Shown here piece after piece: positions 8,301-56,374 of a DNA stretch of 56,603 bases. The translations under genes were made by a program, and so were the position numbers. Source of the stretch: Pigmentiphaga sp. NML080357 (GTDB lineage Bacteria; Pseudomonadota; Gammaproteobacteria; Burkholderiales; Burkholderiaceae_B); assembly GCF_002188465.1 (NCBI RefSeq), contig NZ_NINW01000047.1, positions 1-56,603 of the forward strand, written 5' to 3'. A model generated the notes under the pieces. That model was not told the DNA's origin, searched no databases, and worked only from the letters and a program-made list of their open reading frames with translations. Position 1 is the first letter of the stretch. The number at the start of each line of letters is the position of its first letter.

Positions 8301-8506
8301 GCCTGCAGGTTCTTGTACTGGTCGGCGACCTCGACCAGTTCGCGCACACCCAGTCCCACACCGATGGCACCGCCGATGCGGGACAGGACTTCTCCCACCT
8401 GGCCTGCTTCGCTGCGCAGGCGCGAGAGGCTGCCCTGGACGGACTGGAAGGCGCGTCGCGTCTCATCGACGGCGGTGATGAGGATCTGCGCGCGATTATT
8501 CGCCAT
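5306..8506 (-). CDS. Phage tail tape measure protein
   Basis: 1066 residues, the longest gene in the tail block; by the tape-measure rule this suggests a flexible tail of roughly 150 nm (family knowledge, not measured). Residues about 70-260 carry the typical tape-measure domain (TLYARLAPSVQALG, GALLQLGQAFASGQLRGEEF, ITSKAVLDALLKQ). Two hydrophobic regions follow at about 275-300 and 355-395, then a long charged coiled-coil region (about 590-800). The C-terminus has the characteristic FATGGYVTGPG..SDSIPARLSHGEYVV segment. It acts inside the tail tube to set length and is ejected with DNA. Starts 4 bases after the upstream gene. Confidence 0.95.
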   Translation of the reverse strand: MANNRAQILITAVDETRRAFQSVQGSLSRLRSEAGQVGEVLSRIGGAIGVGLGVRELVEVADQYKNLQARLRLAVTSQEEFNRADAALFEIAQRNRAPLAETVTLYARLAPSVQALGRSQADVLAATDAIGQAVSLSGASSEAAAGALLQLGQAFASGQLRGEEFNSVIEQTPRLAQAIADGMGVPLGSLRALAQEGKITSKAVLDALLKQRGRLAEEYGSLPDTVSGALTRLRNAFLRAFGERDTSSGLTAGLAQAIQLVAQHLELLIDLAGVVLVAAFGRMVSAFATSIAAARAEAAARLANLRTLEAEALARVRLADAALAQARAQGLATSALVVDAAKARLQATAATGTVTQAVASTSLLGRAAGLLRGVLALLGGPIGVIVTTVTLLAGALYSARNALVEFGGKTASIKQIVSATWDLVVEKVGDVVSALGRLVGANNLSWARVREVMLNAIRAIGSAIRTMVNGVIGAFNAVGSVVGVTAAFMVERFRNAFSDIGELAKALGQDVAAAFSGDFSMQSLRAVLGRRLGEMRDFGKQLAGTVRDAVTRDYVGEAAQAIAGRIRPDKNQPGVFGRPQPPAKPTPDKGVEAAKLALVQAQAEAELKILKDALDRQARELDAALEGRLISLKDYYAAKTRIEQQEIDAEIQRAQVSLAQQQSLVKTGKDEPTRIKAKVEVAKLEAELTVLNNKRADVEVANARKAVQAERELREELAKVRDELLDLTGAATSQDRRAAIERQYQSLIERLRAEGDTEGVATVGRLIDVKAAAADLAEYERQFNDALARMRASEESINLQRQSGLLTESQARQQILALHQQTGQSLDALLPQLEATATAIGPDAVARVQAWKNEIAQVKLVVDDVAVAIDGAVQDGFAQLFQDIGSGAKSAKDAFADFGRSVLQTINRIVSQKLAEALFGSLMGGGSAGGASGLGGLIASFFSSGFATGGYVTGPGTSTSDSIPARLSHGEYVVNARAVSRLGVSFLNAINGLSAGPRFSGGRLAFAVGGLVPEAPAQPTPGQNIRIVNVIDPTMAADYLNSSAGERVVMNLIQRNAASVRNILGR

Positions 8507-43391: not shown

Positions 43392-44609
43392 TCAGGCCTG
43401 CCTGGGGGCGGGCGCCGGCAGGCGCCGCACCCAGAAGGCGTAGATGGCCAGCGCCGACAGCGTGCACGCCGCCATCACGCCGGTGATGGCCCGGGCGCTG
43501 TGGCCGTCGTAGAGGAAGGTCACGAGGGATCCCGACAGCGCGCCCGTGGCCATCATCACGCAGCTCACCACGGCCGAGGCCACGCCGGCCACTTCGGGCA
43601 GCGGCTCCACCGCCGCATGCGAGGCGTTCGGCGCGATCATGCCGAACGAAAAAGTATTGATCATCAACAGGGGCACCAGGGTCCAGGCCGACAAGGCGTC
43701 GGCGAACCCCAGTATCGCCAGCAGCACGCTGGTCGAGCTCGACAGCGCCAGGCCGGTCCACAGCAGCTTGTGCGGGGCGATGCCGCGGGCATTGAGGCGG
43801 CCGTTGATGAGCGAGGCCGCCATGATGCCGAAGGCGGTCATGGCGAAGACCAGGCCGAAGGCCTGGGGCGACATGCCCAGCAGCTGCATCATCAGCAGCG
43901 GCGAGCCGGTGATGTAGGCGAACTGGCACCCGAAGGTCAGCGCATTGACCAGCGTGTTGCCCAGGCACACGGGATTGCCCAGCACGCGCGCATAGGCCCG
44001 CATCAGCGCACCCGCCGTGGGGCGCGCGGCGATCGTGGCGGACGGACGGGTCTCGGCCATGCCCAGGTACACCGCCACGGTCGTCGCCACGCCGGCCAGC
44101 GCCATCACCCCGTAGATCGAGCGCCATCCGGCGAAATACATCACCCAGCTGCCCAGCGTGGGGGCGATCATAGGCGCGACGATGCGCATGCTGGCGACAT
44201 ACGACAGGCGGGCGCGCGCGACGTGGCCCTGGAAAAGGTCGCGCACGATGGTGAGCGACATCACCGATCCCGCCCCGGCGCCGACGCCCTGCAGGACACG
44301 GAACACCAGCAGCGAACCCAGGTTGGGCGCCAGCGCGCAGGCGGCGCTCGCCAGCGAGAACAGCACGCCGCCGAACAGCACGATGGGCCGCCTGCCGTAG
44401 CGGTCGGCCAGCGGACCGTACGCCAGGGGCGCGATGGCGAATCCGGCCAGGAACAGGCTCAGGGTCAAGGCGGCGCTGGACGGCGGGACGTGGAGATCCA
44501 GGCCGATGGCCGCCAGCGCGGGCAGCGCCATGTCGGTGGAGAGAGCCGGCAACGCGGACAGGGAAGCCAGGAGCAGGACGAATGCCGCGGAGTCGGGACG
44601 TATGCGCAT
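43392..44609 (-). CDS. MFS drug efflux transporter, Bcr/CflA type
   Basis: Start MRIRPDSAAFVLLLASLSAL at 44609; 405 residues with about 12 membrane segments. The MFS motif GPLADRYGRRPIVLFGG lies after helix 2, and FRVLQGVGAGAGSVMSLTIV is the family's helix-4/5 signature. The early TDMALPALAAIG segment is typical of DHA1 Bcr/CflA. It exports small toxic compounds by proton antiport; the substrate is not predictable. It is convergent to the small secreted protein gene (one-base gap). Its 5' end faces the nitrate promoter region. Confidence 0.9.
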   Translation of the reverse strand: MRIRPDSAAFVLLLASLSALPALSTDMALPALAAIGLDLHVPPSSAALTLSLFLAGFAIAPLAYGPLADRYGRRPIVLFGGVLFSLASAACALAPNLGSLLVFRVLQGVGAGAGSVMSLTIVRDLFQGHVARARLSYVASMRIVAPMIAPTLGSWVMYFAGWRSIYGVMALAGVATTVAVYLGMAETRPSATIAARPTAGALMRAYARVLGNPVCLGNTLVNALTFGCQFAYITGSPLLMMQLLGMSPQAFGLVFAMTAFGIMAASLINGRLNARGIAPHKLLWTGLALSSSTSVLLAILGFADALSAWTLVPLLMINTFSFGMIAPNASHAAVEPLPEVAGVASAVVSCVMMATGALSGSLVTFLYDGHSARAITGVMAACTLSALAIYAFWVRRLPAPAPRQA

Positions 44610-44681
44610 GGCCCGCAGTTTACCGTGTCCGCACGTGGCGAGCCGGCCGTCCAAGAGCGGCCAGGCTTCGGAAATGCGGAA

Positions 44682-44696
44682 GCACCCGCTTGGTGC
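44682..44696. promoter_or_regulatory. NtrC-type binding site (GCACC-N5-GGTGC)
   Basis: GCACC at 44682-44686 and GGTGC at 44692-44696, a perfect dyad with the NtrC spacing. It is about 160 bases upstream of the predicted start of transcription. A weaker relative, gcgcc..ggcgc, lies at 44716-44729. Confidence 0.7.
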
Positions 44697-44825
44697 GGCG
44701 CACAAGATTGGGCACGCGCCATGGGGCGCAAGCGCCAGCCAGGCGCGGCGACGCCGGCCCCACCCCAGCTTCAACCCCTTGTTCCATAAGCGGTTTTCCT
44801 GCGCCAGCGAAGACCGTCCCACCCA

Positions 44826-44841
44826 TGGCACAGCTATTGCT
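44826..44841 (+). promoter_or_regulatory. Sigma-54 promoter of nrtA
   Basis: TGGCAC-N5-TTGCT, with GG (44827-44828) and GC (44839-44840) exactly ten bases apart, as required at -24/-12. The predicted +1 is at about 44852, precisely the first base of the first leader hairpin. Confidence 0.88.
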
Positions 44842-44851
44842 TGAAAGGCTT

Positions 44852-44904
44852 GCCGGCCAACGCAGGCCGGCGACACGACTGAGCGGTAGGAACAACGGCG
44901 TTCC
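44852..44904 (+). promoter_or_regulatory. ANTAR (NasT) RNA target: two hexaloop hairpins
   Basis: Hairpin 1: 7-bp stem gccggcc/ggccggc (44852-44871) with loop AACGCA. Hairpin 2: stem ggaac/gttcc (44889-44904) with loop AACGGC. Both loops have the A1 and G4 that ANTAR proteins require. The 3' side of hairpin 2 overlaps the terminator's 5' arm, so binding would prevent termination. NasT is encoded in the same operon. Confidence 0.82.
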
Positions 44905-44948
44905 GCAGTGACCAAGGCGAAGCCTTCGTTGCGCGGGACGCTTTTTTT
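44898..44948 (+). terminator. Leader terminator of the nrt operon (attenuator)
   Basis: 9-bp stem gcgttccgc (44898-44906) with gcgggacgc (44933-44941), including one G-T pair and an inner small hairpin aaggc-gaa-gcctt, followed by seven T (44942-44948). It is mutually exclusive with hexaloop hairpin 2. Confidence 0.82.
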
Positions 44949-44963
44949 CGCCTGGAGCGCCGG

Positions 44964-46262
44964 ATGAAACTGAATACCTCGCCTGACTCTTGCCCCCCGG
45001 CGGCCACCGCCGCCACCTCGTCCGGCCCGGACGCCCAGCGCCGCAGGCTGCTGGGGGCCGGAGCGGCCGCGGGCATCATGAGCCTGGTGGATCCCATGGT
45101 GCGCGCGGGAGCGTGGGCGGCCGGCTCGGACGCTCCCGAGAAGCCCGAGGTCAGGATCGGCTTCATTCCGCTGACCGACTGCGCCTCCGTCGTGATGGCG
45201 GCGACGCTGGGCCTGGACAAGAAATACGGCGTGAAGATCACGCCCGTCAAGGAAGCCTCCTGGCCGGGCGTGCGCGACAAGCTGGTCAACGGCGAACTGG
45301 ATCTCGCCCACGTGCTGTACGGTCTGGTCTACGGCGTGCAGCTGGGCATAGGCGGCCCGCGCAAGGACATGGCGGTGCTGATGAACCTGAACAACAACGG
45401 CCAGGCCATCACGATATCCAACAAGCTCCGGGACAAGGGCGCGCGCGATGGCGCGTCGCTGGCCAAGCTGATGAAAAGCGAGAAGGCCGAATACACCTTC
45501 GCCCAGACCTTCCCGACCGGCACCCACGCCATGTGGATCTATTACTGGCTGGCCGCCCATGGCATCAATCCGATGCGCGATGCCAAGGTTATTACCGTGC
45601 CGCCGCCCCAGATGGTGGCGAACATGCGGGTCGGCAACATGGACGGGTTCTGCGTGGGCGAGCCTTGGAACGCGCGCGCCATCATGGACAACATCGGCTT
45701 TACCGCCACCACCACGCAGGCAATCTGGACCGATCATCCGGAGAAGGTGCTGGGCACGACCGCCGAGTTCGTGCAGCGCTATCCGAATACGGCGCGCGCC
45801 GTGACGGCGGCGGTGCTGGAAGCGGGCAAGTTCATCGACGCGTCGGCTTCCAACCGCCGCAAGACCGCGGAGACCATCGCCGCCAAGTCCTACGTCAACA
45901 CGGACATGGACGTGATCCTGGACCGGATGCTCGGCCGCTATACCGACGGCCTGGGCAAGACCTGGGACGACCCGAACGCGATGAAGTTCTTCAACGACGG
46001 CGGCGCCAACTTCCCCTACCTGTCGGACGGCATGTGGTTCCTCACCCAGCACAAGCGCTGGGGGCTGCTCAAGAGCCATCCCGACTACCTGGCGGTCGCC
46101 AGGCAGGTCAACCGCATCGACGTCTACAAGCAGGCCGCGAGCGCGGCGGGCGTGGCGGTGCCCAAGTCGGACATGCGCACGTCCAGGCTCGTCGACGGCG
46201 TGGTCTGGGATGGCAAGAACCCGGCCGCCTATGCCGACGGCTTCAAGGTCAACGTTTCCTAA
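44964..46262 (+). CDS. nrtA: Nitrate ABC transporter substrate-binding protein
   Basis: 432 residues. A Tat-type signal QRRRLLGAGAAAGIMSL (about 25-41) leads to the mature part beginning near AGSDAPEKPEVRIGFIPLTD. The NrtA/CmpA family segments are ASWPGVRDKLVNGELDLAHV, TFPTGTHAMWIYYWLAAHGI, PPPQMVANMRVGNMDGFCVG and EPWNARAI. It captures nitrate (possibly nitrite) in the periplasm for the NrtB/NrtC transporter coded downstream. It is homologous to NasS of the same operon. Confidence 0.93.
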   Translation: MKLNTSPDSCPPAATAATSSGPDAQRRRLLGAGAAAGIMSLVDPMVRAGAWAAGSDAPEKPEVRIGFIPLTDCASVVMAATLGLDKKYGVKITPVKEASWPGVRDKLVNGELDLAHVLYGLVYGVQLGIGGPRKDMAVLMNLNNNGQAITISNKLRDKGARDGASLAKLMKSEKAEYTFAQTFPTGTHAMWIYYWLAAHGINPMRDAKVITVPPPQMVANMRVGNMDGFCVGEPWNARAIMDNIGFTATTTQAIWTDHPEKVLGTTAEFVQRYPNTARAVTAAVLEAGKFIDASASNRRKTAETIAAKSYVNTDMDVILDRMLGRYTDGLGKTWDDPNAMKFFNDGGANFPYLSDGMWFLTQHKRWGLLKSHPDYLAVARQVNRIDVYKQAASAAGVAVPKSDMRTSRLVDGVVWDGKNPAAYADGFKVNVS

Positions 46263-46285
46263 GCATCGCACCAGGAGTCTCCATC

Positions 46286-47212
46286 ATGACCGCCACGGCT
46301 CGCTCCTTCAACGCCGGTCCTGCCGCCTCCCCGCCCGTTGCGGAGGTCATCGACCTGCACGCCGCAGGCGCCCACGCCCCCGCAGCGCCCGCGGCCACGG
46401 CGCCGCGCCCGCCGCTGCTGGCGCGCGTGGACTGGCGCAGCGCCTGGGAAACCTTCGTCAAGGCAGTGGCCGGCCCATGCCTGGGTTTCGCGCTGCTGAT
46501 CCTGGGCTGGCAACTGGTGGCCGACACCATCCCGGAGATTCCTTCGCCGGGCGTGACCGGGCGAGCGGCGGTGGCGCTGTTCTCCGACCCGTTCTACGAC
46601 AACGGCCCCAACGACCAGGGCATAGGCTGGAACCTGCTTTCGTCCCTGCGGCGCGTGGCCATCGGTTTCGGGCTGGCGGCGCTGGTCGGCATCCCGGCGG
46701 GTTTCGTCATCGGACGCTTCGCGGCGGTCAGTGCGGTGCTCTCCCCTCTCATCAGCCTGCTGCGTCCGGTGTCGCCGCTGGCCTGGCTGCCGCTGGGACT
46801 GCTGCTGTTCAAGTCCGCCAACCTGGCCGCGGTATGGGCCATCTTCATCTGCTCGATCTGGCCGATGATCATCAATACCGCGGTCGGCGTGACGCGCGTG
46901 CCGCAGGACTACATGAACGTGGCGCGAGTGCTGAAGCTGTCGGAATGGAAGATCATGACGCGGGTGCTGTTCCCGGCCGTCCTGCCCTACATGCTGACCG
47001 GCGTGCGGCTGTCCATCAGCACGGCCTGGCTGGTGATCGTCGCGGCCGAGATGCTGACCGGCGGCGTGGGCATCGGCTTCTGGCTGTGGGACGAATGGAA
47101 CAACCTGAAGGTGGAACACATCGTCATCGCCATCTTCGTGATCGGCATCGTCGGCCTGGTCCTGGAAGTCTTGCTGACCCAGCTGGTCCGGCGCTTCACC
47201 TACGCCGACTGA
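46286..47212 (+). CDS. nrtB: Nitrate ABC transporter permease
   Basis: Start [20 protein letters not shown] at 46286 behind AGGAG; 308 residues. An N-terminal cytoplasmic Pro/Ala-rich region (1-50) is followed by about six membrane segments. The BPD-transport signature is [19 protein letters not shown] (EAA-loop, near 215), which docks on NrtC, and [20 protein letters not shown]. It is the membrane channel of the NrtABC importer. 23 bases after nrtA; 19 bases before nrtC. Confidence 0.93.
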
Positions 47213-47231
47213 CACGCGCAAGGAGCGCATC

Positions 47232-48032
47232 GTGGACAAGTTCCTCAGCATCGAAAACGTGGGCCAGGTCTTCAAGACCCGCAAGGGAGACTTCATTGCC
47301 CTGCGCGACATCAACCTGACCGTCGCCAAGGGCGAGTTCATCTCGCTGATCGGCCATTCCGGATGCGGCAAGTCGACACTGCTCAACCTGGTGGCGGGCC
47401 TGACACGCCCCACGTCCGGCGCGCTCATCTGCGCCGGCCGGGAGATCGACGGGCCAGGGCCCGAACGCGCCGTGGTCTTCCAGAACCACTCGCTGCTGCC
47501 CTGGTTCAGCTGCTACAAGAACATCCATCTCGGCGTGGAGCGCGTATTCGGCGCCACCGAGAGCAAGGCCAGGCTGCGCGAGCGTACGTTGGCGGCGCTG
47601 CAGCTGGTGGGGCTGGCGCATGCGGAGCACAAGCTGCCGCACGAGATATCGGGCGGCATGAAGCAGCGCGTGGGCATCGCCCGCGCCCTGGCGATCGAAC
47701 CCGACGTGCTGCTGATGGACGAACCCTTCGGCGCGCTCGATGCGCTGACCCGCGCCCACTTGCAGGACGAGCTGCTGGAAATCGTCGCCAAGACGCAGAG
47801 CTCCGTCATCATGGTCACGCATGACGTGGACGAGGCGGTGCTGCTGTCGGACCGGATCGTGATGCTGACCAACGGCCCGGCCGCCACCATAGGCGAGATC
47901 CTGGACGTGCGCCTGCCGCGGCCGCGCAGCCGGATCGAGCTGGCCGACGACGAGCGCTATCACGCGTGCCGCACCGCGGTCATCGATTTCCTCTACCGCA
48001 AGCAAAGCCATCCGGCGCGCCAGGCGGCGTAA
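47232..48032 (+). CDS. nrtC: Nitrate ABC transporter ATP-binding protein
   Basis: GTG start at 47232 with AGGAG (47221) just ahead; 266 residues. Walker [16 protein letters not shown], the signature [15 protein letters not shown], Walker [13 protein letters not shown] and the switch [12 protein letters not shown] are intact. This is a short single-domain NrtD/NasD-type ATPase without the NrtA-like C-terminal domain of cyanobacterial NrtC. It forms the homodimer that drives NrtB. I use nrtC for the gene order; nrtD is an equally fair symbol. Confidence 0.92.
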
Positions 48033-48041
48033 CATTCTTCC

Positions 48042-48617
48042 ATGCCCCGAGTCCTGCTGGTCAACGATACCGACAAGCCCATCGCCGAGTTGCGCGAGGC
48101 GCTGCAGCGCGCGGGATACGAGATCATGGCGGACGTGGCGCATGCCCGGGCGCTGCTCCATGCGGTGGAAACGCAGCGTCCCGACGTGATCATCATCGAT
48201 ACCGAATCGCCCACGCGCGACACCCTGGAGCAGTTGGCGGTCATGAACGCCGCCGCTCCCCGGCCGGTGGTCATGTTCTCGGACGTGGCCGACCAGTCCA
48301 TCATCCGCGCGGCGGTCCGGGCCGGCGTCACGACCTATGTGGTGGATGGCATGGCGCCCGAGAAACTGGCCCCCATCCTGGAAGTCGCCTGTGCCCGCTT
48401 CGACGAGGAAGACAAGCTGCGGCGCCGGCTGGCCGAAGTCGAACAGCAGTTGGCGGACCGCAAGGACATCGACCGGGCCAAGGGCTGGCTGATGGACAGG
48501 CACGGGCTGAGCGAAGCCGAGGCGTTCGAACTCCTGCGCAGCCAGGCCATGAAACAAGGCGCCCGGCTGGGCGACGTCGCGCGGCAGTTGCTGTCGATGT
48601 CCGACCCGCCTGGCTAA
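48042..48617 (+). CDS. nasT: ANTAR-domain antitermination regulator NasT
   Basis: 191 residues. The receiver-like domain (PRVLLVNDTDKPIAELREAL, DVIIIDTESPTRDTLEQLAV, Asp53 at the phospho-acceptor place) is followed by the ANTAR domain (DRKDIDRAKGWLMDRHGLSE, AEAFELLRSQAMKQGARLGD). It should bind the hexaloop hairpins in the nrt and nir leaders and prevent termination. In the known NasS-NasT system NasS holds NasT inactive until nitrate binds. Ten bases before nasS; order nasT-nasS. Confidence 0.93.
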   Translation: MPRVLLVNDTDKPIAELREALQRAGYEIMADVAHARALLHAVETQRPDVIIIDTESPTRDTLEQLAVMNAAAPRPVVMFSDVADQSIIRAAVRAGVTTYVVDGMAPEKLAPILEVACARFDEEDKLRRRLAEVEQQLADRKDIDRAKGWLMDRHGLSEAEAFELLRSQAMKQGARLGDVARQLLSMSDPPG

Positions 48618-48633
48618 CCGATCGGAGATGCCG

Positions 48634-49800
48634 ATGTCCCTTCCCTTTTCTTCCGCGGCGCATCCGGGCGGCCACCTGGTCGCGGGCTCCGATGCGCCGG
48701 AGAAGCGCCAGCTGCGCGTGGGCTTCATCGCGCTGACCGACTGCGCGCCGCTGGTCATCGCGGTCGCCAAAGGGTATGACCGCAAGTACGGCCTCGAAAT
48801 CGTGCTGCAGCGCCAGCCGTCCTGGGCGGCGGTGCGCGACAAGCTGCTGGCCGGCGAGCTCGACGCCTCGCACGCGCTGTACGGGCTGGGCTACGGCATC
48901 CAGCTGGGCCTGGGCGGCCCGCAGCACGACATGGCGATATTGATGTCGCTGAACCAGGGCGGCCAGGCCATCACGCTGTCGCAGGCGCTGGCTCCCCAGG
49001 TGCGCGACGGCGCCTCGCTGGCGCGCCTGGTCCACGGTTCCGAGACGCGCTACACCTTCGCCCATACTTTTCCGACGGGCTCGCACGCCATGCTGCTTTA
49101 TTACTGGCTGGCGGCGCACGACATCCATCCGCTGTACGACGTGCGCAGCGTGGTGATCCCCCCGCCGCAGATGGCCGAGGGCCTGCGGCGGGGGGACGTC
49201 GACGGCTACTGCGTGGGCGAACCGTGGAACGCGCTGGCGCAAAGCGAGGGCAAGGGTTTTACCGTCGCGCTGACCTCGGAAGTCTGGCCCAATCACCCCG
49301 AGAAGGTGCTGGCCTGCACCCGGGACTTCGCCGACCGCCATCCCAACACGGCGCGCGCGCTGGTCATGGCCCTGCTGGAAGCCTGCCGCTACCTGGACGT
49401 GCCCGCCAACCGGGAAGAAGCCGCGTCCTGGCTGGCGCTGCCGGACTACGTCGACGCGCCGCGCGACGTCATCGCGTCGCGGCTGCTGCCGGAGAAGGCG
49501 GCGGACGGCAGCACGCCCGGCATCCGTTTCTTCGGCGACGGCGAGGCCAATTTCCCGTACCTGTCAGACGGGATGTGGCTGATCGCGCAATACCGGCGCT
49601 GGGGCATGCTGCGCGACGAGCCCGACTACGAGGCGGTCGCGCAGGGCATCCACCGGCTCGACCTGTATCGCGAAGCGGCGGCGCAGCTGGGCGTCGCCGT
49701 GCCGGACGCCACCCGGCGATCGAGCCGGCTCATCGACGGCAAGACCTGGGACGGCGGCGACGCCGCCGCCTATGCGCGGAGCTTCGACATCAAGGCCTAG
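48634..49800 (+). CDS. nasS: Nitrate sensor NasS (cytoplasmic NrtA-like)
   Basis: I choose the ATG at 48634 because GGAG lies six bases upstream; an ATG at 48628 sits right on the ribosome site. 388 residues, no signal peptide. After the start, AGSDAPEKRQLRVGFIALTD matches the mature N-terminus of NrtA in this operon. TFPTGSHAMLLYYWLAAHDI and PPPQMAEGLRRGDVDGYCVG show the kept nitrate-binding core. It binds nitrate or nitrite in the cytoplasm and releases NasT. Confidence 0.92.
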   Translation: MSLPFSSAAHPGGHLVAGSDAPEKRQLRVGFIALTDCAPLVIAVAKGYDRKYGLEIVLQRQPSWAAVRDKLLAGELDASHALYGLGYGIQLGLGGPQHDMAILMSLNQGGQAITLSQALAPQVRDGASLARLVHGSETRYTFAHTFPTGSHAMLLYYWLAAHDIHPLYDVRSVVIPPPQMAEGLRRGDVDGYCVGEPWNALAQSEGKGFTVALTSEVWPNHPEKVLACTRDFADRHPNTARALVMALLEACRYLDVPANREEAASWLALPDYVDAPRDVIASRLLPEKAADGSTPGIRFFGDGEANFPYLSDGMWLIAQYRRWGMLRDEPDYEAVAQGIHRLDLYREAAAQLGVAVPDATRRSSRLIDGKTWDGGDAAAYARSFDIKA

Positions 49801-49845
49801 CACGAGACGACCGCGCCCTGCGCCAGTGCGCCGGCCTGGCCCGAC

Positions 49846-49860
49846 GCACTAGGCTGGTGC
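49846..49860. promoter_or_regulatory. NtrC-type binding site (GCACT-N5-GGTGC)
   Basis: GCACT at 49846-49850 and GGTGC at 49856-49860 with the NtrC five-base spacing, one mismatch from a perfect dyad. It is about 120 bases upstream of the predicted nirB transcription start. Confidence 0.65.
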
Positions 49861-49945
49861 CCTGCCGCCCCCACCGTGGCGCCCTCGCCGGCGCTTCGTC
49901 CCCGAACTCCCTGGCGCACCGCATTCCCGACACCGGCAAGCGGCC

Positions 49946-49962
49946 CGGCACGCCCTTTGCTT
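49946..49962 (+). promoter_or_regulatory. Sigma-54 promoter of nirB
   Basis: CGGCAC-N5-TTGCTT, GG at 49947-49948 and GC at 49959-49960, ten bases apart. The predicted +1 is at about 49972, which leaves a leader of about 130 bases. Confidence 0.82.
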
Positions 49963-50025
49963 AATCATGAATGCGCCCATGCGGCGCGCGAACCAGGGCC
50001 GGGGCAATCGCCACGGCCCGCACCA

Positions 50026-50039
50026 GGACAACGGCGTCC
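50026..50039 (+). promoter_or_regulatory. Hexaloop hairpin in the nirB leader (ANTAR-type)
   Basis: Stem ggac/gtcc with the loop AACGGC, identical to the loop of hairpin 2 in the nrt leader (A1, G4). A second upstream hairpin (gggccg..cggccc, 49996-50018) is present but its apical loop does not show a clean A1/G4 hexaloop. So the ANTAR target here is less complete than at nrtA. Confidence 0.6.
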
Positions 50040-50073
50040 CCTCGCAGCCAGGCTGCGGCGGGACGCCGTTGTC
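50027..50073 (+). terminator. Leader hairpin of nirB (attenuator-like)
   Basis: gacaacggcgtccc (50027-50040) and gggacgccgttgtc (50060-50073) form a perfect 14-bp stem with an inner gcagcc/ggctgc hairpin. Only a short T-run (gttt, 50074-50077) follows, so termination efficiency is uncertain. The 5' arm contains the hexaloop hairpin. Confidence 0.65.
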
Positions 50074-50102
50074 GTTTCCGGAACTGTCTGACCGAGTCGA
50101 AC

Positions 50103-52550
50103 ATGATGAACAGATCGAAACTGGTTGTGGTGGGCAACGGCATGGCCGGCATACGCACGCTGGAAGAACTGCTGGCGCTGGCGCCCGACCGATACGACAT
50201 CACGGTCTTCGGCGCCGAGCCGCATCCGAACTACAACCGCATCCTGCTGTCGCCGGTGCTCGCGGGCGAGCAGAACTTCCAGGACATCGTGCTCAACCCG
50301 CTGTCGTGGTACGAGGAAAACGGCATTACGCTGCACACCGGCAAGCCGGTGGTCCGCATCGACCGCCGCCGCCGCGTGGTCGTGGCCGAGGACGGCAGCG
50401 AAGCGCCCTACGACCGCCTGCTGCTGGCGACCGGTTCCAATCCCTTCATCCTGCCCATACCCGGCAAGGACCTGGACGGCGTCATTACCTATCGCGACAT
50501 CCACGACACGCAGCGGATGATCGACGCGGCCCGGACCAAGCGGCGGGCGATCGTCATCGGCGGAGGCCTGCTCGGACTGGAGGCCGCCAACGGCTTGAAG
50601 CTGCGCGGGATGGAGGTGAGCGTGGTGCACCTGGGCGACTGGCTGCTCGAGCGCCAGCTCGACCGCACCGCGGGCAAGCTGCTGGAAGCCTCGCTGGCGG
50701 CGCGCGGGCTCGATTTCTTGCTGGGGCGGTCGACCGCCGAGATCCTTGGCGACGACGCCGGCCGCGTGCGGGGCGTGCGCTTCAAGGACGGCGAGGAAGT
50801 CGAGGCCGAATTGGTCGTCATGGCCGTGGGCATACGGCCCAATACCGCGCTGGCCGAGGCGGCGGGGCTGCACTGCCGCAACGGCATCGTGGTCAACGAC
50901 GTGCTGCAGACCTTCGATCCGCGCATCTACGCGGTGGGCGAATGCGTCAACCATCGCGGCACCGCCTACGGCCTGGTGGCGCCCCTGTTCGAGATGGCCA
51001 AGGTCGCCGCCAATCACCTGGCCGAGCTCGGCTACGGCAGCTACAAGGGCTCGGTACTGTCGACCAAGCTCAAGGTCACCGGCATCGACCTGTTCTCGGC
51101 GGGGGACTTCGCCGGCGGCGCCGATACCGAGGACATCGTGCTGTCGGATCCGGCCGGCGGCGTCTACAAGCGGCTGGTGATCAAGGACGACAAGCTGGTG
51201 GGCGCCTGCCTGTACGGCGACACGGTGGACGGCGCCTGGTACTTCAAGCTTCTGCGCGAAGGACGCGCGATCGGCGAGCTGCGCGACAGGCTGATGTTCG
51301 GCGAATCCAGCGTGGGCGATGCCGGCGTGCAGGGGCAGAGCCGCGCCGCCGCCATGCAGGACAGCGACGAGGTCTGCGGCTGCAACGGCGTCTGCAAGGG
51401 CACCATCGTGCGCGCCATCCAGGACAAGGGCCTGTTCACCGTGGACGACGTCAAGAAGCACACCAAGGCCGCGAGTTCCTGCGGCTCGTGCACCGGCCTG
51501 GTGGAACAGATCCTGATGAACACCCTGGGCTCCAATTTCCAGGAAGCTCCCAAGACCAAGGCGGTATGCGGCTGTACCGACCACAGCCATGCGGCGCTGC
51601 GCCAGGCCATCCGCGAGCACAGGCTGCTGAGCCACGCCGAGGTCTATGCCTTCATGGATTGGCGCACGCCCAACGGCTGCGCCACCTGCCGGCCGGCCGT
51701 CAACTACTACCTGATCTCGACCTGGCCGCGCGAGGCCGTGGACGATCCGCAAAGCCGCTTCATCAACGAGCGCGCGCACGCCAACATCCAGAAAGACGGC
51801 ACGTTCTCGGTCGTGCCGCAGATGAAGGGCGGCGTGACGAACCCGTCGGAACTGCGGCGCATCGCCGATGTGGCCGACAAATACGCCGTGCCCATGATCA
51901 AGGTGACCGGCGGTCAGCGCATCGACCTGCTGGGCGTGAAGAAGGAAGACCTGGTTTCCGTCTGGCGCGACCTGGGAATGAATTCCGGCCATGCCTACGG
52001 CAAGTCCATCCGCACGGTGAAGACCTGCGTGGGCATGGAGTTTTGCCGCTTCGGCACCCAGAACAGCACGCAGATGGGCATCGAGCTCGAGACCATGCTG
52101 GCCAATATGTGGAGTCCGCACAAGGTCAAGCTCGCGGTGTCGGGCTGCCCGCGCAATTGCGCCGAATCGGGCATCAAGGACGTGGGCGTGATCGCGGTCG
52201 ACAGCGGCTGGGAGCTCTACGTGGGCGGCAATGGCGGCATCAAGACCGAGGTCGCGCAATTCCTGGTGAAGGTCAAGACGCCCGAAGAGGTCAAGGAGTA
52301 CGCCGGTGCTTTCCTGCAGCTGTACCGGGAGGAGGCCTATTACCTCGACCGCACCGTGCACTACATCGAGCGCGTGGGCCTGGACTACGTCAAGCGCAAG
52401 ATCGTGGAGGACGCTCCCGGCCGCAAGGCGCTCTACGAACGCCTGCTGTACTCGCTCGAAGGCCTGCGCGACCCCTGGGCCGAACGCGTGCAGGGCAAGG
52501 CCGGGCGCGAATACATCCCCCTGAAACTGGTGTCCGAAGAGGTTGCATGA
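50103..52550 (+). CDS. nirB: Assimilatory nitrite reductase, large subunit
   Basis: Start MMNRSKLVVVGNGMAGIRTL at 50103 (or 50106); 815 residues. Order: FAD domain (VVVGNGMAGIRTLEEL), NADH-binding part (AIVIGGGLLGLEAANGLKL), BFD-type 2Fe-2S motif (CGCNGVCKGT..CGSCTGL), a second Cys site (NGCATCRPAVN) and the siroheme/4Fe-4S region with CVGMEFCRFG and SGCPRNCAESGIKD. It reduces nitrite to ammonium with NAD(P)H in the cytoplasm, with NirD. The siroheme pathway enzyme is coded downstream. Four-base overlap with nirD. Confidence 0.97.
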   Translation: MMNRSKLVVVGNGMAGIRTLEELLALAPDRYDITVFGAEPHPNYNRILLSPVLAGEQNFQDIVLNPLSWYEENGITLHTGKPVVRIDRRRRVVVAEDGSEAPYDRLLLATGSNPFILPIPGKDLDGVITYRDIHDTQRMIDAARTKRRAIVIGGGLLGLEAANGLKLRGMEVSVVHLGDWLLERQLDRTAGKLLEASLAARGLDFLLGRSTAEILGDDAGRVRGVRFKDGEEVEAELVVMAVGIRPNTALAEAAGLHCRNGIVVNDVLQTFDPRIYAVGECVNHRGTAYGLVAPLFEMAKVAANHLAELGYGSYKGSVLSTKLKVTGIDLFSAGDFAGGADTEDIVLSDPAGGVYKRLVIKDDKLVGACLYGDTVDGAWYFKLLREGRAIGELRDRLMFGESSVGDAGVQGQSRAAAMQDSDEVCGCNGVCKGTIVRAIQDKGLFTVDDVKKHTKAASSCGSCTGLVEQILMNTLGSNFQEAPKTKAVCGCTDHSHAALRQAIREHRLLSHAEVYAFMDWRTPNGCATCRPAVNYYLISTWPREAVDDPQSRFINERAHANIQKDGTFSVVPQMKGGVTNPSELRRIADVADKYAVPMIKVTGGQRIDLLGVKKEDLVSVWRDLGMNSGHAYGKSIRTVKTCVGMEFCRFGTQNSTQMGIELETMLANMWSPHKVKLAVSGCPRNCAESGIKDVGVIAVDSGWELYVGGNGGIKTEVAQFLVKVKTPEEVKEYAGAFLQLYREEAYYLDRTVHYIERVGLDYVKRKIVEDAPGRKALYERLLYSLEGLRDPWAERVQGKAGREYIPLKLVSEEVA

Positions 52551-52876
52551 TGAGTGCCAATGATCCGCATCCCTGGGTCCGCCTGTGCGAGGTGGACGAC
52601 ATCCCGAAACTGGGCAGCCGCGTGGTGGAACGCGCGGGCGGCAACCTGGCGGTGTTCCGTACCGCCCAGGACAAGGTCTTCGCGCTGCTCGACCGCTGCC
52701 CCCACAAGAACGGTCCCTTGTCGCAAGGCATCGTCCACGGGGAATCGGTCACCTGCCCCCTGCATGGCTGGCAGATCGGCCTGGAGAACGGGCAGGCCAA
52801 GGCGCCCGACGAGGGGTGCGCGCGCCGTTTCCCGGTGCGCGTGGACAAGGGCGTGGTCTATCTCGGACTGAGCTGA
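52547..52876 (+). CDS. nirD: Nitrite reductase small subunit
   Basis: 109 residues. A Rieske-type fold with DRCPHKNGPLSQG and VTCPLHGWQIGLENGQA, so the Cys-X-His and Cys-X2-His pairs of a 2Fe-2S site are retained, while in many NirD proteins they are lost. It pairs with NirB. The ATG overlaps the nirB stop (ATGATG), a coupled start. The next gene follows after 16 bases. Confidence 0.95.
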   Translation: MMSANDPHPWVRLCEVDDIPKLGSRVVERAGGNLAVFRTAQDKVFALLDRCPHKNGPLSQGIVHGESVTCPLHGWQIGLENGQAKAPDEGCARRFPVRVDKGVVYLGLS

Positions 52877-52892
52877 ACGGCGGGAGCACGTC

Positions 52893-55601
52893 ATGGGCGA
52901 GCCACGAACCACCGCGTCGACCTGCTGCTATTGCGGCGTGGGCTGCGGCGTCCTGATCGACAGCGTTGGCGATCGCATCGTCGGCGTCCGGGGCGACCCC
53001 CATCATCCGGCCAATGCCGGCAAGCTCTGCTCGAAGGGGCTGTCGCTCGCGCTGACCGCGCAAAGCACGGCCGGACGCGCCCTGCATCCATCCTGGCGTC
53101 CCCAGCGCGGCGCGCCGCTGCAGCCGGTGGAATGGGAGTCGGCCTTCGACCACGTCGCGACCCGCCTGGCGGAGATCGTCCGCCGGCATGGCCCCGATGC
53201 GGTGGCCTTCTACGTGTCGGGTCAACTGCTGACCGAGGACTACTACATCTTCAACAAGCTGGCCAAGGGCCTGGTGGGCACCAACAACATCGACACCAAC
53301 TCGCGCCTGTGCATGTCGAGCGCCGTGACGGGCTACAAGCTGTCGCTGGGCGCCGACGGGCCGCCCACCTGCTACGAAGATCTGGACCACGCCCATACGG
53401 TGCTGATCGCCGGCAGCAACATGGCATACGCCCACCCGGTGCTGTACCGCCGGCTCGAAGCGGCACGCGAGGCCCGGCCCGGCACGCGCTGGATCGTCGT
53501 GGATCCGCGCCGCACCGACACCGCGGCCATGGCCGACCTGCACCTGCAAATACAGCCGGGCACCGACGTCGCGCTGTTCAACGGCATGCTGCACCACCTG
53601 ATCTGGGAAGGCTGGCTCGACCACGGCCACATCGCCGGGCATACCGAAGGCTTCGATGCGGTCAAGCGCATAGTGCGCGACACCACGCCGGCCGCCGCCG
53701 CGGCGGTGTGCGGCATTTCCGAGCGGGACCTGTGCCAGGCCGCCGAATGGTTTGCGCGCAGCCCGGCCACGCTGTCGCTCTACTGCATGGGCCTGAACCA
53801 GTCCAGCCACGGCACCGACAAGAACCTCGCGCTGGTCAATCTGCACCTGGCGACGGGCCAGATCGGCCGCGCCGGCGCGGGCCCGTTCTCGCTGACGGGC
53901 CAGCCCAACGCCATGGGCGGCCGCGAAGTGGGCGGCATGGCCACCATGCTGGCGGCCCATCGGGACATCGGCAATGCCGCCCATCGCGCCGAGGTGGCGG
54001 CGTTCTGGAAAGTGGACGCGGTATCCGGCCGCCCCGGCCTGGCCGCCGTCGACATGTTCGACGCGCTGGCCGCGGGCAAGGTGAAAGCGGTGTGGATCGT
54101 CTGTACCAACCCGGCCCATTCGCTGCCCCGCATCGAAGCCGTGCGCCAGGCGCTGCGGCGCGCCGAACTGGTCGTGGTGCAGGAAGCCTACGCCGACACC
54201 GACACCGTGGCGTTCGCCGACGTGCTCCTGCCCGCCGCCAGCTGGGGGGAGAAGGACGGCACCGTCACCAACTCGGAACGGCGCATATCGCGCGTGCGCG
54301 CCGCCATCGCGCCACCGGGCGAGGCGCGGGCCGACTGGCGCATCGCGGCCGAGATCGGCCGGCGCATGCAACGCCTGCTCAAGCCGGACGCCCCCGACCT
54401 GTTTCCCTACCAAACGCCGCGCGAGATCTTCGACGAGCACCGGGCGCTCACGCAAGGCCGCGACCTCGACATCGGCGGGCTGGACTACGACATCCTGGAG
54501 GCGCGCGGGCCGCAGCAATGGCCATTCCCGGCCGGCAGCGCGCAGGGCCTGGCCCGTCGCTATGTCGATCGGCGCTACGCCACCGAATCGGGCCGCGCAT
54601 GCTTCCAGCCCGTCTCCTACCGCCCCGTGGCCGTGGCGACGAGCCCGCGCTATCCCTTCCACCTGACCACCGGGCGGCTGCGGGACCAATGGCACGGCAT
54701 GAGCCGCACCGGCCGCCTCGCGCAAGCATTCTCGCACGCGCCGGAGCCCACGCTCGACATGCATCCGGCGGACGCCGCGCGCCGCGGCCTGTCGGATGGC
54801 GACCTGGTGCAGGTCGAGAGCCGCGACGGCGCCCTCGTGCTGCCGCTCAGGCTGACCGAGGACCTGGCCTCGGGAACCGTGTTTGCCGCCATGCATTGGA
54901 ACGGCCAGTTCATGAACAGCGGCGGTGTCAATGAAGTCTGCAACGCGGCGGTGGACGGCAAGTCGTTCCAGCCGGAGCTCAAGCACACCGCGGTCAGGAT
55001 CGACAAGGCGGAACTGGGATGGCGGGTACGCGCCGCCATCGACGTGGACGGGCAGGAAGAAGCTCTGGCCCGGCGCGCGGCGCTGCAGCCGCTGCTGGCG
55101 GCATGCGGCTATGCCGCGCTGGGCCTGCGCGCCGCCGGCGACCGCACGGTGCTGGCGTTGACCGCCGCCCTGGCCGCGCCCGACGAAGCCTGGCTCGGGG
55201 CGTTGGCCGAGGCCCTGGACATGGGCGCCGGCCCCGACGTCCTGGACTACCGGGACCGGCGGCAGGGCGTACGCAAGTGCGCACGCTGGCAGGCCGACCG
55301 CCTGCTTGCCTTCGTCCTGGCGGGTGACGTGGCACAGGCGGAAGCGCTGCTGGCGCGCCTTGCGGCGGGCAAGCCGTGGGAAGGCTCCCGGCTGCGCGTG
55401 TTCACCCCGGACGCGGCCCCGGTGGTCCGCGACCGCACCGTCTGCCAGTGCAAGGGCGTCGCGGCATCGGCCATCAACGCCGCCATCGCGCGGGGCGCCG
55501 ACGTGGCGGCCCTGAAGGCCACGCTGGGCTGCGGCACCGTGTGCGGCTCTTGCGTGCCGGAACTGTCGCGGATGTGCGGCGCGTCGCGAATGTCGGCATG
55601 A
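52893..55601 (+). CDS. nasA: Assimilatory nitrate reductase, molybdopterin catalytic subunit
   Basis: 902 residues. The N-terminal 4Fe-4S site is CCYCGVGCGV..LCSKG. Molybdopterin domains follow (TNSRLCMSSAVTGYKLSLGA, SLYCMGLNQSSHGTDKNLAL, FSLTGQPNAMGGREVGGMA), and the C-terminal dinucleotide-binding domain (RYPFHLTTGRLRDQWHGMSR). At the C-terminus a BFD-like 2Fe-2S domain is fused (VCQCKGVAASAINAAI, GCGTVCGSCVPEL). It reduces nitrate to nitrite in the cytoplasm; there is no Tat signal. The electron donor is not coded here. ATGA overlap with cobA. Confidence 0.96.
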   Translation: MGEPRTTASTCCYCGVGCGVLIDSVGDRIVGVRGDPHHPANAGKLCSKGLSLALTAQSTAGRALHPSWRPQRGAPLQPVEWESAFDHVATRLAEIVRRHGPDAVAFYVSGQLLTEDYYIFNKLAKGLVGTNNIDTNSRLCMSSAVTGYKLSLGADGPPTCYEDLDHAHTVLIAGSNMAYAHPVLYRRLEAAREARPGTRWIVVDPRRTDTAAMADLHLQIQPGTDVALFNGMLHHLIWEGWLDHGHIAGHTEGFDAVKRIVRDTTPAAAAAVCGISERDLCQAAEWFARSPATLSLYCMGLNQSSHGTDKNLALVNLHLATGQIGRAGAGPFSLTGQPNAMGGREVGGMATMLAAHRDIGNAAHRAEVAAFWKVDAVSGRPGLAAVDMFDALAAGKVKAVWIVCTNPAHSLPRIEAVRQALRRAELVVVQEAYADTDTVAFADVLLPAASWGEKDGTVTNSERRISRVRAAIAPPGEARADWRIAAEIGRRMQRLLKPDAPDLFPYQTPREIFDEHRALTQGRDLDIGGLDYDILEARGPQQWPFPAGSAQGLARRYVDRRYATESGRACFQPVSYRPVAVATSPRYPFHLTTGRLRDQWHGMSRTGRLAQAFSHAPEPTLDMHPADAARRGLSDGDLVQVESRDGALVLPLRLTEDLASGTVFAAMHWNGQFMNSGGVNEVCNAAVDGKSFQPELKHTAVRIDKAELGWRVRAAIDVDGQEEALARRAALQPLLAACGYAALGLRAAGDRTVLALTAALAAPDEAWLGALAEALDMGAGPDVLDYRDRRQGVRKCARWQADRLLAFVLAGDVAQAEALLARLAAGKPWEGSRLRVFTPDAAPVVRDRTVCQCKGVAASAINAAIARGADVAALKATLGCGTVCGSCVPELSRMCGASRMSA

Positions 55602-56374
55602 GCATGATGGAAATGACGAGGATGAAGATGGGCAAAGGACGAGTGATCCTGATGGGCGCCGGCCCCGGCGACCTGGAACTGCTGACCCGCAAGGCGGTGC
55701 GTGCGCTCGCCGCGGCCGACGTGCTGCTGCTCGACGAACTGGTGGCGCCGGACATCGTCGAGCTGGCGCCGCGAGCGCGCGTGCTGCGCGTCGGCAAGCG
55801 CGGCGGCTGTCGCTCCACGCCGCAGGCCTTCATCCAGCGATTGATGCGACGCCACGCGCTGCAGGGCCGGACCGTGGTCAGGGTCAAGGGTGGCGAGGCG
55901 CTGCTGTTCGGCCGTGCGGGCGAGGAGATCGCCTTCCTGGAACAGGCCGGCATCGAGGTGGAATTGGTCAATGGCATCAGCTCGGGACTCGCGGCCGCCA
56001 CTGCCCTCGGCATCTCGCTGACCCACCGGGACCACTGCCACGGCGTGAGCTTCGTCACCGCCCACACCCAGGACGGCGAGCCTCCCAACTGGGCGGCCCT
56101 GGCGCAAAGCCGGACCACGCTGGTGATCTACATGGGCATGCAACGCATCGAGGAAGCGGCGGCCGGCCTGCTGGCGCACCTGCCCGGCACGACCCCTGCG
56201 GCAGTGGTGCAATGGGCCTCGACACCGCGAGAAGCCCGGCTGGTGACACGGCTCGAGCGGCTCGCCGTGGACGCGCGGCAGGCGGGGCTGGGCAGCCCGG
56301 CCATCATCCTCGTCGGCGAGGCGATCGGCCTGGCGCGGGCGGAGGCGGTTCTATCGATGCAGCAAAGCGCCTAG
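55598..56374 (+). CDS. cobA: Uroporphyrinogen-III C-methyltransferase
   Basis: 258 residues from the ATG at 55598 (overlap with the nasA stop); in-frame ATGs at 55604, 55613, 55622 and 55628 are alternatives, MGKGRVILMGAGPGDLELLT being the conserved start. SUMT motifs: GAGPGDLELLTRKAV, VVRVKGGEALLFGRAGEEI, NGISSGLAAATALGISLTHR, TLVIYMGM. It makes precorrin-2 from uroporphyrinogen III, the first step to the siroheme of NirB. Its place in the nir operon couples cofactor and enzyme supply. Could also be called nirE. Confidence 0.95.
   Translation: MSMMEMTRMKMGKGRVILMGAGPGDLELLTRKAVRALAAADVLLLDELVAPDIVELAPRARVLRVGKRGGCRSTPQAFIQRLMRRHALQGRTVVRVKGGEALLFGRAGEEIAFLEQAGIEVELVNGISSGLAAATALGISLTHRDHCHGVSFVTAHTQDGEPPNWAALAQSRTTLVIYMGMQRIEEAAAGLLAHLPGTTPAAVVQWASTPREARLVTRLERLAVDARQAGLGSPAIILVGEAIGLARAEAVLSMQQSA

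Follow-up and report, generated by a model that had tools for sequence, protein, structure and literature searches.

Predicted NtrC/sigma-54 initiation followed by NasT antitermination at a nitrate-assimilation operon of Pigmentiphaga

The nasF leader of Klebsiella oxytoca lies behind an NtrC/sigma-54 promoter, as the leader described here is predicted to do. To our knowledge, the Pseudomonas aeruginosa operon amiECBRS is not controlled by NtrC/sigma-54, and the Enterococcus eut system, which has a Gram-positive host, has no sigma-54 promoter; in this respect, both are unlike the present locus. The nasF/NasR system further resembles this locus in that its leader forms two hexaloop hairpins with A at loop position 1 and G at position 4 (A1 and G4), the second hairpin (P2) overlaps a terminator, and antitermination is operated by nitrate. 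NasR alone senses nitrate and binds the RNA in that system, whereas here NasS should sense nitrate and NasT should bind. Published accounts describe the NasS-NasT pairs of Paracoccus denitrificans and Bradyrhizobium, in which, as proposed here, a nitrate-binding sensor is combined with an ANTAR protein that acts on leader RNA, and they name Azotobacter and Pseudomonas putida alongside as bearers of NasS-NasT. In Paracoccus, however, nasTS precedes the nasA leader, with nasT under an NtrC-dependent control region of its own, whereas here both genes lie behind the nrtA attenuator. A likeness in topology is found in amiECBRS, where the ANTAR regulator AmiR and the sensor AmiC are encoded within the operon whose leader AmiR targets, although the signal is an amide and the proteins are AmiC/AmiR (PMC3369936). 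The Enterococcus eut leaders targeted by EutV share the dual hexaloop ANTAR motif with terminator overlap, but EutV is activated by phosphorylation (PMC3369936). Further literature was also drawn on (PMC3369931, PMC7496416, PMC8164766, PMC5424462, PMC3795266, PMC4724949, PMC8467165).

The window, which is the whole analysed stretch of 56,603 nucleotides from Pigmentiphaga sp. NML080357, contains a control region at 44682-44948, flanked by an MFS transporter gene that runs divergently (43392-44609, minus strand) and by nrtA (44964-46262, plus strand). We propose, with a probability of about 0.8, that initiation by NtrC and sigma-54 is followed at this nitrate-assimilation operon by NasT antitermination. 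The control region is ordinary in kind, as it belongs to the class that combines NtrC/sigma-54 with an ANTAR leader, and it offers a compact natural case of two serial signals at one operon. What is added here is the position of nasT-nasS inside the operon and a comparative set of leaders.

Promoter elements, leader RNA and regulator proteins

The earlier note on this DNA had claimed a perfect NtrC dyad, a sigma-54 element, two hexaloop hairpins with A1 and G4, and a T7 terminator whose 5' arm overlaps the second hairpin. Each of these was found again on the plus strand, at the same place and with the same bases. Pattern matching located the NtrC-type dyad GCACC-N5-GGTGC at 44682-44696, 5' of the sigma-54 element TGGCAC-N5-TTGC at 44826-44840, which carries GG at -24 and GC at -12 and matches at 10/10 positions. 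From the sigma-54 spacing (12 nt past the C of -12), transcription is predicted to start at 44852. The first hairpin, P1, has 7 bp and the loop AACGCA and spans 44852-44871, so that the note's placement of +1 on its first base holds for this form; it does not hold for the extended hairpin, as one G-U and one U-A pair can be added to give 44850-44873, which begins 5' of the predicted start.

The single DNA motifs occur near chance level and thus prove little alone. The NtrC pattern is present once in the window (mean of 0.24 in shuffled windows), as is the sigma-54 pattern (mean of 0.20), and allowing one mismatch in the latter gives five occurrences against 5.4 expected, which is the chance level. 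The weight therefore rests on order and conservation. Of 79 nrtA upstream regions long enough to be scored, the window's among them, 77 carry a sigma-54 element of at least 9/10, a count made without shuffle control, and an NtrC dyad of at least 9/10 lies within 200 bp 5' of the sigma-54 site in 39/80 regions compared with 1.4 expected. The distance of the dyad from the sigma-54 element varies, from -76 in four loci (L003, L111, L112, L113) to -144 in the window and -158 in L110, and we count this variability against the proposed reading. The genome encodes NtrC, which together with a neighbouring piece scores 685 bits, over the curated cut-off of 558.6, and two RpoN proteins. Genome-wide predictions place nitrate transport genes, nirB and nasT of Pseudomonadota under sigma-54 (PMC12316311).

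The second hairpin, P2, the predicted antiterminator, has 5 bp and the loop AACGGC and occupies 44889-44904. The 5' arm of the next element, an intrinsic terminator stem-loop at 44898-44941 (-29.5 kcal/mol as an isolated fold), overlaps P2; the two terminator arms, 44898-44906 and 44933-44941, form nine pairs (eight Watson-Crick and one G-U) and are followed by the T7 tract at 44942-44948. The arrangement is that of an ANTAR leader, with two stem-loops of at least 3 bp, A1 and G4 in both hexaloops, P2 overlapping the 5' arm of a terminator with a T tract, and, as described below, stem covariation among relatives. When the leader was folded freely, the terminator fold reached -48.9 kcal/mol, 7.9 kcal/mol below the fold in which P1 and P2 were forced; in these models, the terminator is favoured in unbound RNA. 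In folds of partial RNAs, P1 was present throughout, P2 belonged to the minimum-energy fold of the growing RNA to +53 and was replaced by another pairing at +60 to +85, and the terminator had formed by +90. A protein would have to catch P2 early, and this displacement also counts against the proposed reading.

Could nitrogen limitation and nitrate act in series on this region, as the earlier note had suggested? The motifs, their conservation, the covariation and the partner proteins support such a scheme. Under nitrogen shortage, phosphorylated NtrC at 44682-44696 would activate the sigma-54 polymerase at 44826-44840. The RNA would start at or close to 44852, directly with P1, after which P2 would form. 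Without nitrate, NasS would hold NasT, and the terminator (44898-44948) would form. With nitrate or nitrite, on the other hand, NasT would be released to bind the loops of P1 and P2 and hold P2, so that the terminator would be blocked and the polymerase would read through into nrtABC-nasT-nasS and perhaps beyond.

The genes behind the leader, all on the plus strand, fit these roles. The product of nrtA, the binding protein of a nitrate ABC transporter, matches PF13379 and falls among the NrtA rows of the tree; its best match in the named genome collection, from which the window's own record was possibly excluded, is that of Pigmentiphaga sp. NML030171 (90% identity). An open frame that contains nrtB (permease, PF00528) spans 46271-47212, and the ATPase gene nrtC/D (TIGR01184, over cut-off) lies at 47232-48032. 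Inside the operon, nasT (48042-48617; PF03861, PF00072) encodes a receiver and ANTAR antiterminator and adjoins nasS (48628-49800; PF13379), which encodes an NrtA-like sensor. By eye, the NasS N-terminus lacks the twin-arginine stretch of NrtA and shows no export signal, and in the tree NasS groups with other paralogues of the genus in a 10-row clade separate from NrtA, with support of 99/99. We read the NasT residues against the EutV structure 6wsh, with the RNA contacts as named in PMC8934654. In our reading, NasT keeps 7/11 of the EutV contact residues (R142, K143, K149, E160, R168, M172 and R177) and has F for Y164, R for K147, K for N173 and G for R175.

The genome contains two ANTAR matches, whose open frames are 194 and 221 aa long; the first, NasT, was scanned for domains. 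Both are too short for NIT and ANTAR domains together, and no NasR-type protein (NIT plus ANTAR, about 400 aa) was found in this genome. The second match, on contig 37 (L002/L118; 335-937 of L002), is an AmiR-sized protein whose gene is convergent with a nitrilase-like gene (by eye) and near ABC transporter genes. As a separate observation on the partner proteins, eight loci (L004, L011, L013, L020, L021, L026, L044, L058) contain nasT with no close NasS found in the genome: in these 8/18 genomes searched, the window NasS matches NrtA only (E 1e-10), and no second NMT1_2 protein of at least 100 bits was found.

Conservation and covariation of the leader

The comparison rests on the best 80 of at least 590 nrtA relatives, titled mostly Betaproteobacteria; as these are kin, the counts are not independent. 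We assembled 81 leaders, namely the window, 76 of the 80 nrtA loci and four added loci of the genus; among the 80, the upstream sequence was too short in two (L029, L043), and a sigma-54 site of at least 9/10 was absent from two others (L052, L054). In 56/81 leaders, a hexaloop hairpin of the ANTAR type begins no later than +14, compared with a mean of 0.5 in 200 mononucleotide shuffles, and one is present at +20 to +110 in 73/81 compared with 3.5 (200 shuffles). Both hairpins together are found in 51/81, whereas these shuffles gave 0.02 on average. The P2 pattern is present in 68/77 leaders. P2 and the terminator are also kept in relatives whose genome has no NasT, so that P2 may be conserved in part because of the terminator, a point that weighs against the proposed reading.

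Covariation was counted in 31 distinct natural rows representing 37/81 leaders, the other 44/81 having been dropped beforehand; P1 was preselected for at least four Watson-Crick pairs, which favours the pairs adjoining the loop. Within this set, standard pairs fill 89.0% of the cells of 12 pairs, compared with a mean of 69.8 and a maximum of 75.0 in 500 shuffles and with 23-46% when the partners are slid. Double changes number 67, in 10/12 pairs (shuffles: mean 22.7, maximum 39), and occur in the stems of both P1 and P2. The loop-closing pair is an invariant C-G in both hairpins in all rows, a feature shared with the published NasR selection.

These results bear on the possibility that an ordinary constitutive terminator merely happens to be accompanied by chance hairpins, without ANTAR control. 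Single motifs do arise by chance at about 0.2 per window; the joint conservation and covariation, however, are far above shuffles, nasT lies in the operon, and its product keeps RNA-contact residues. We consider this explanation very improbable.

Searches with general and leader-specific RNA models were also made. The sole Rfam match in the window at gathering scores was a tRNA, so that the nrtA leader has no curated Rfam hit. In the window's own genome, the leader model R1 gave eight matches up to E 5, among them the nrtA leader, which was part of the training set (45.1 bits), the leader of nirB (22.4 bits, E 0.2) and five other, weaker matches. The remaining match, C58:176-223 (26.6 bits, E 0.03), was taken as chance, as it lies 3' of an ectoine-hydroxylase-like gene (by eye), which is not a leader position.

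Position of nasT-nasS in the operon

The earlier note was silent on nasT-nasS inside the operon. Among the 81 leaders, nasT is upstream on the same strand in 51, upstream and divergent in 5, in the operon in 6 and absent from the locus in 18, and one locus is too short; placement was scored at a cut-off of 80 bits, and the interrupted copy in L005 was thus scored as none. The six in-operon cases are the window and five other loci of the genus, and outside these six, nasT precedes the leader in 56/75. When 268 genomes of the family were searched with NasT at E 1e-42, 17 matched, seven from the genus (93-100% identity) and ten others (42-45%). All seven genus genomes with the window-type NasT have the order nrtB-nrtC-nasT-nasS, and in 6/7 this NasT is the sole ANTAR match. 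Together, these two results indicate that the gene for the predicted antiterminator of this lineage lies behind the attenuator on which its product would act. A different NasT (38-41%), encoded either upstream of its leader or divergently from it, is found in three further genomes of the genus, and the remaining one of the 11 genus genomes gave no ANTAR match.

Since nasT-nasS lie behind the terminator, readthrough would make more of both NasT and NasS, closing an autoregulatory loop that leaky readthrough would prime. The topology has a precedent in amiECBRS, so that the principle as such is known. In the titles and abstract beginnings of the literature consulted, we recognised no case of nasT-nasS inside their own target operon and none of nas regulation in Pigmentiphaga. 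The position of the two genes makes the feedback testable within one genus.

Feedback through the nrtA leader would be lost if nasT-nasS had a separate promoter, which we regard as a possibility well short of even odds. The control region of Paracoccus nasT mentioned above speaks for it, as does a sigma-54-like site about 40 bp before the other nasT in L116 and L117. At the present locus, however, the gap between nrtC and nasT is nine bases, and no sigma-54-like site with at most one mismatch is found in 44841-49945. A sigma-70-like pair is likewise absent from 44500-55700, but as shuffles give just 1.1, this absence says little. In L116 and L117, the sites (at 8478 and 8522, respectively, minus strand) precede a nasT that is itself upstream of its leader.

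Leaders with a single ANTAR loop

A second candidate leader, which the earlier note had not mentioned either, precedes nirB (50103-52550, plus strand; TIGR02374 over cut-off; the start is our reading of an open frame at 49971-52550), the gene for the large subunit of nitrite reductase, which is followed by a nitrate-reductase-like gene (52893-55601, plus strand). On the plus strand, it comprises a second sigma-54-like element, CGGCACGCCCTTTGC (CGGCAC-N5-TTGC, 9/10 match), at 49946-49960, a hairpin of the P2 type (GGAC-AACGGC-GTCC, 50026-50039), and a terminator-like stem at 50027-50073 that overlaps this hairpin and has a weak T tract. As the window contains about as many 9/10 matches as expected by chance, support for the element comes from its conservation: a 9/10 CGGCAC-type element also precedes nirB in six other genus loci examined. 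The same P2-type hairpin is present in 7/7 genus loci examined, no other ANTAR loop hairpin of at least 3 bp precedes it in any of the seven, and the T tract is poor in 6/7. By sequence, nirB is thus preceded by a second sigma-54/ANTAR-type leader with a single ANTAR loop.

Some nrtA leaders are similar in this respect. In 9/81 (L016, L018, L019, L022, L025, L027, L047, L048, L110), P2 is not preceded by an A1/G4 hairpin of at least three uninterrupted pairs, though in L019 the P1 loop proved to be present on an interrupted stem. Six of them have a hairpin near +1 with a 3- or 4-base loop: L016, L018, L025 and L047 (Achromobacter), L048 (Bordetella) and L027 (an uncultured betaproteobacterium). 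In L018 this hairpin appears in the short fold and the longer fold differs; in L047 it is seen in the longer-fold set only. In L022, with nasT upstream, the loop reads AACATG where G4 is expected.

A first hairpin near the start is general among the leaders. It starts by +7 in 80/81, and when the start is limited to +1 to +6 and the energy to -8 kcal/mol or lower, 64/81 pass, compared with 33 to 45 in 20 shuffles; as shuffles of such GC-rich leaders already give this many, the near-+1 position is enriched and yet weak evidence alone. The automatic choice of first hairpin differs from P1 in some rows, e.g., L005, L009, L019, L111 and L112.

Is the loss of the P1 loop tied to the absence of NasT? 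Whole-genome searches covered the genomes of 24 (NasT) and 26 (ANTAR) of the 80 loci. No NasT was found at E 1e-8 in the genomes of L016, L018, L025, L047, L048 and L027, and in all six an ANTAR match falls in an open frame 414 to 545 aa long; domain scans of two of these proteins (from L121 and L123, in the genomes of L025 and L048) showed the NIT and ANTAR domains of the NasR type. Achromobacter loci with a divergent upstream nasT (L015, L019, L021, L035) keep the A1/G4 loop. The 18 leaders without nasT in the locus, however, split into nine with both hairpins, six with P2 only and three with neither, and in L110, a locus of the genus with an intact NasT encoded inside the operon, the P1 loop is CATTCC, without A1/G4, which also counts against the proposed reading. 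Together with L022, these cases indicate that no simple rule ties loss of the P1 loop to absence of NasT.

An alternative is that nitrate acts mostly through P2 alone, with P1 serving mainly as a structured 5' end, an element for the start site or RNA stability whose loop is dispensable. The near-+1 hairpin kept without an A1/G4 hexaloop in the six leaders above and in L110 would fit this explanation, as would the single ANTAR loop (P2) of the nirB leaders in 7/7 genus loci, and a single hexaloop was proposed as the minimal target from the EutV structure (PMC8934654). Against this, A1, A2 and G4 dominate the five-prime hexaloop hairpins (57, 59 and 57 of 67), and 6/7 of the leaders named come from genomes without NasT at E 1e-8. 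Moreover, PMC3369936 describes the P1 stem and A1/G4 of its loop as essential for nasF, and both hairpins and residues of their loops as important for eutP. We therefore consider action through P2 alone unlikely and prefer binding of NasT to both loops at the nrtA leader.

It is tempting to go further and to regard the near-+1 hairpin and the ANTAR loop as separable modules, such that a plain hairpin replaces P1 in natural single-hexaloop leaders, including that of nirB, P1 is not a fixed second site, and in Pigmentiphaga nasT-nasS behind a two-loop leader form an autocatalytic, possibly bistable nitrate switch. This combined proposal is tentative, and we would sooner doubt it than rely on it. 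The reason for two hairpins was left open by the EutV-RNA structure paper (PMC8934654). Leaders that have a hairpin near +1 without the P1 A1/G4 hexaloop bear on this question, and natural leaders with and without the P1 loop could test why ANTAR antitermination usually has two hairpins.

The number of hairpins also varies upward. Three tandem ANTAR-type hexaloop hairpins lie between the predicted +1 and the terminator in Cupriavidus (L004, L005, L006, L012, L017) and Variovorax (L053), and three are seen by eye in L072, L077 and L078 as well. In L049, L057, L058, L071, L074 and L076, a tetraloop hairpin comes first, near +4, followed by two ANTAR hairpins; by eye, the tetraloop is of the GNRA type in 5/6.
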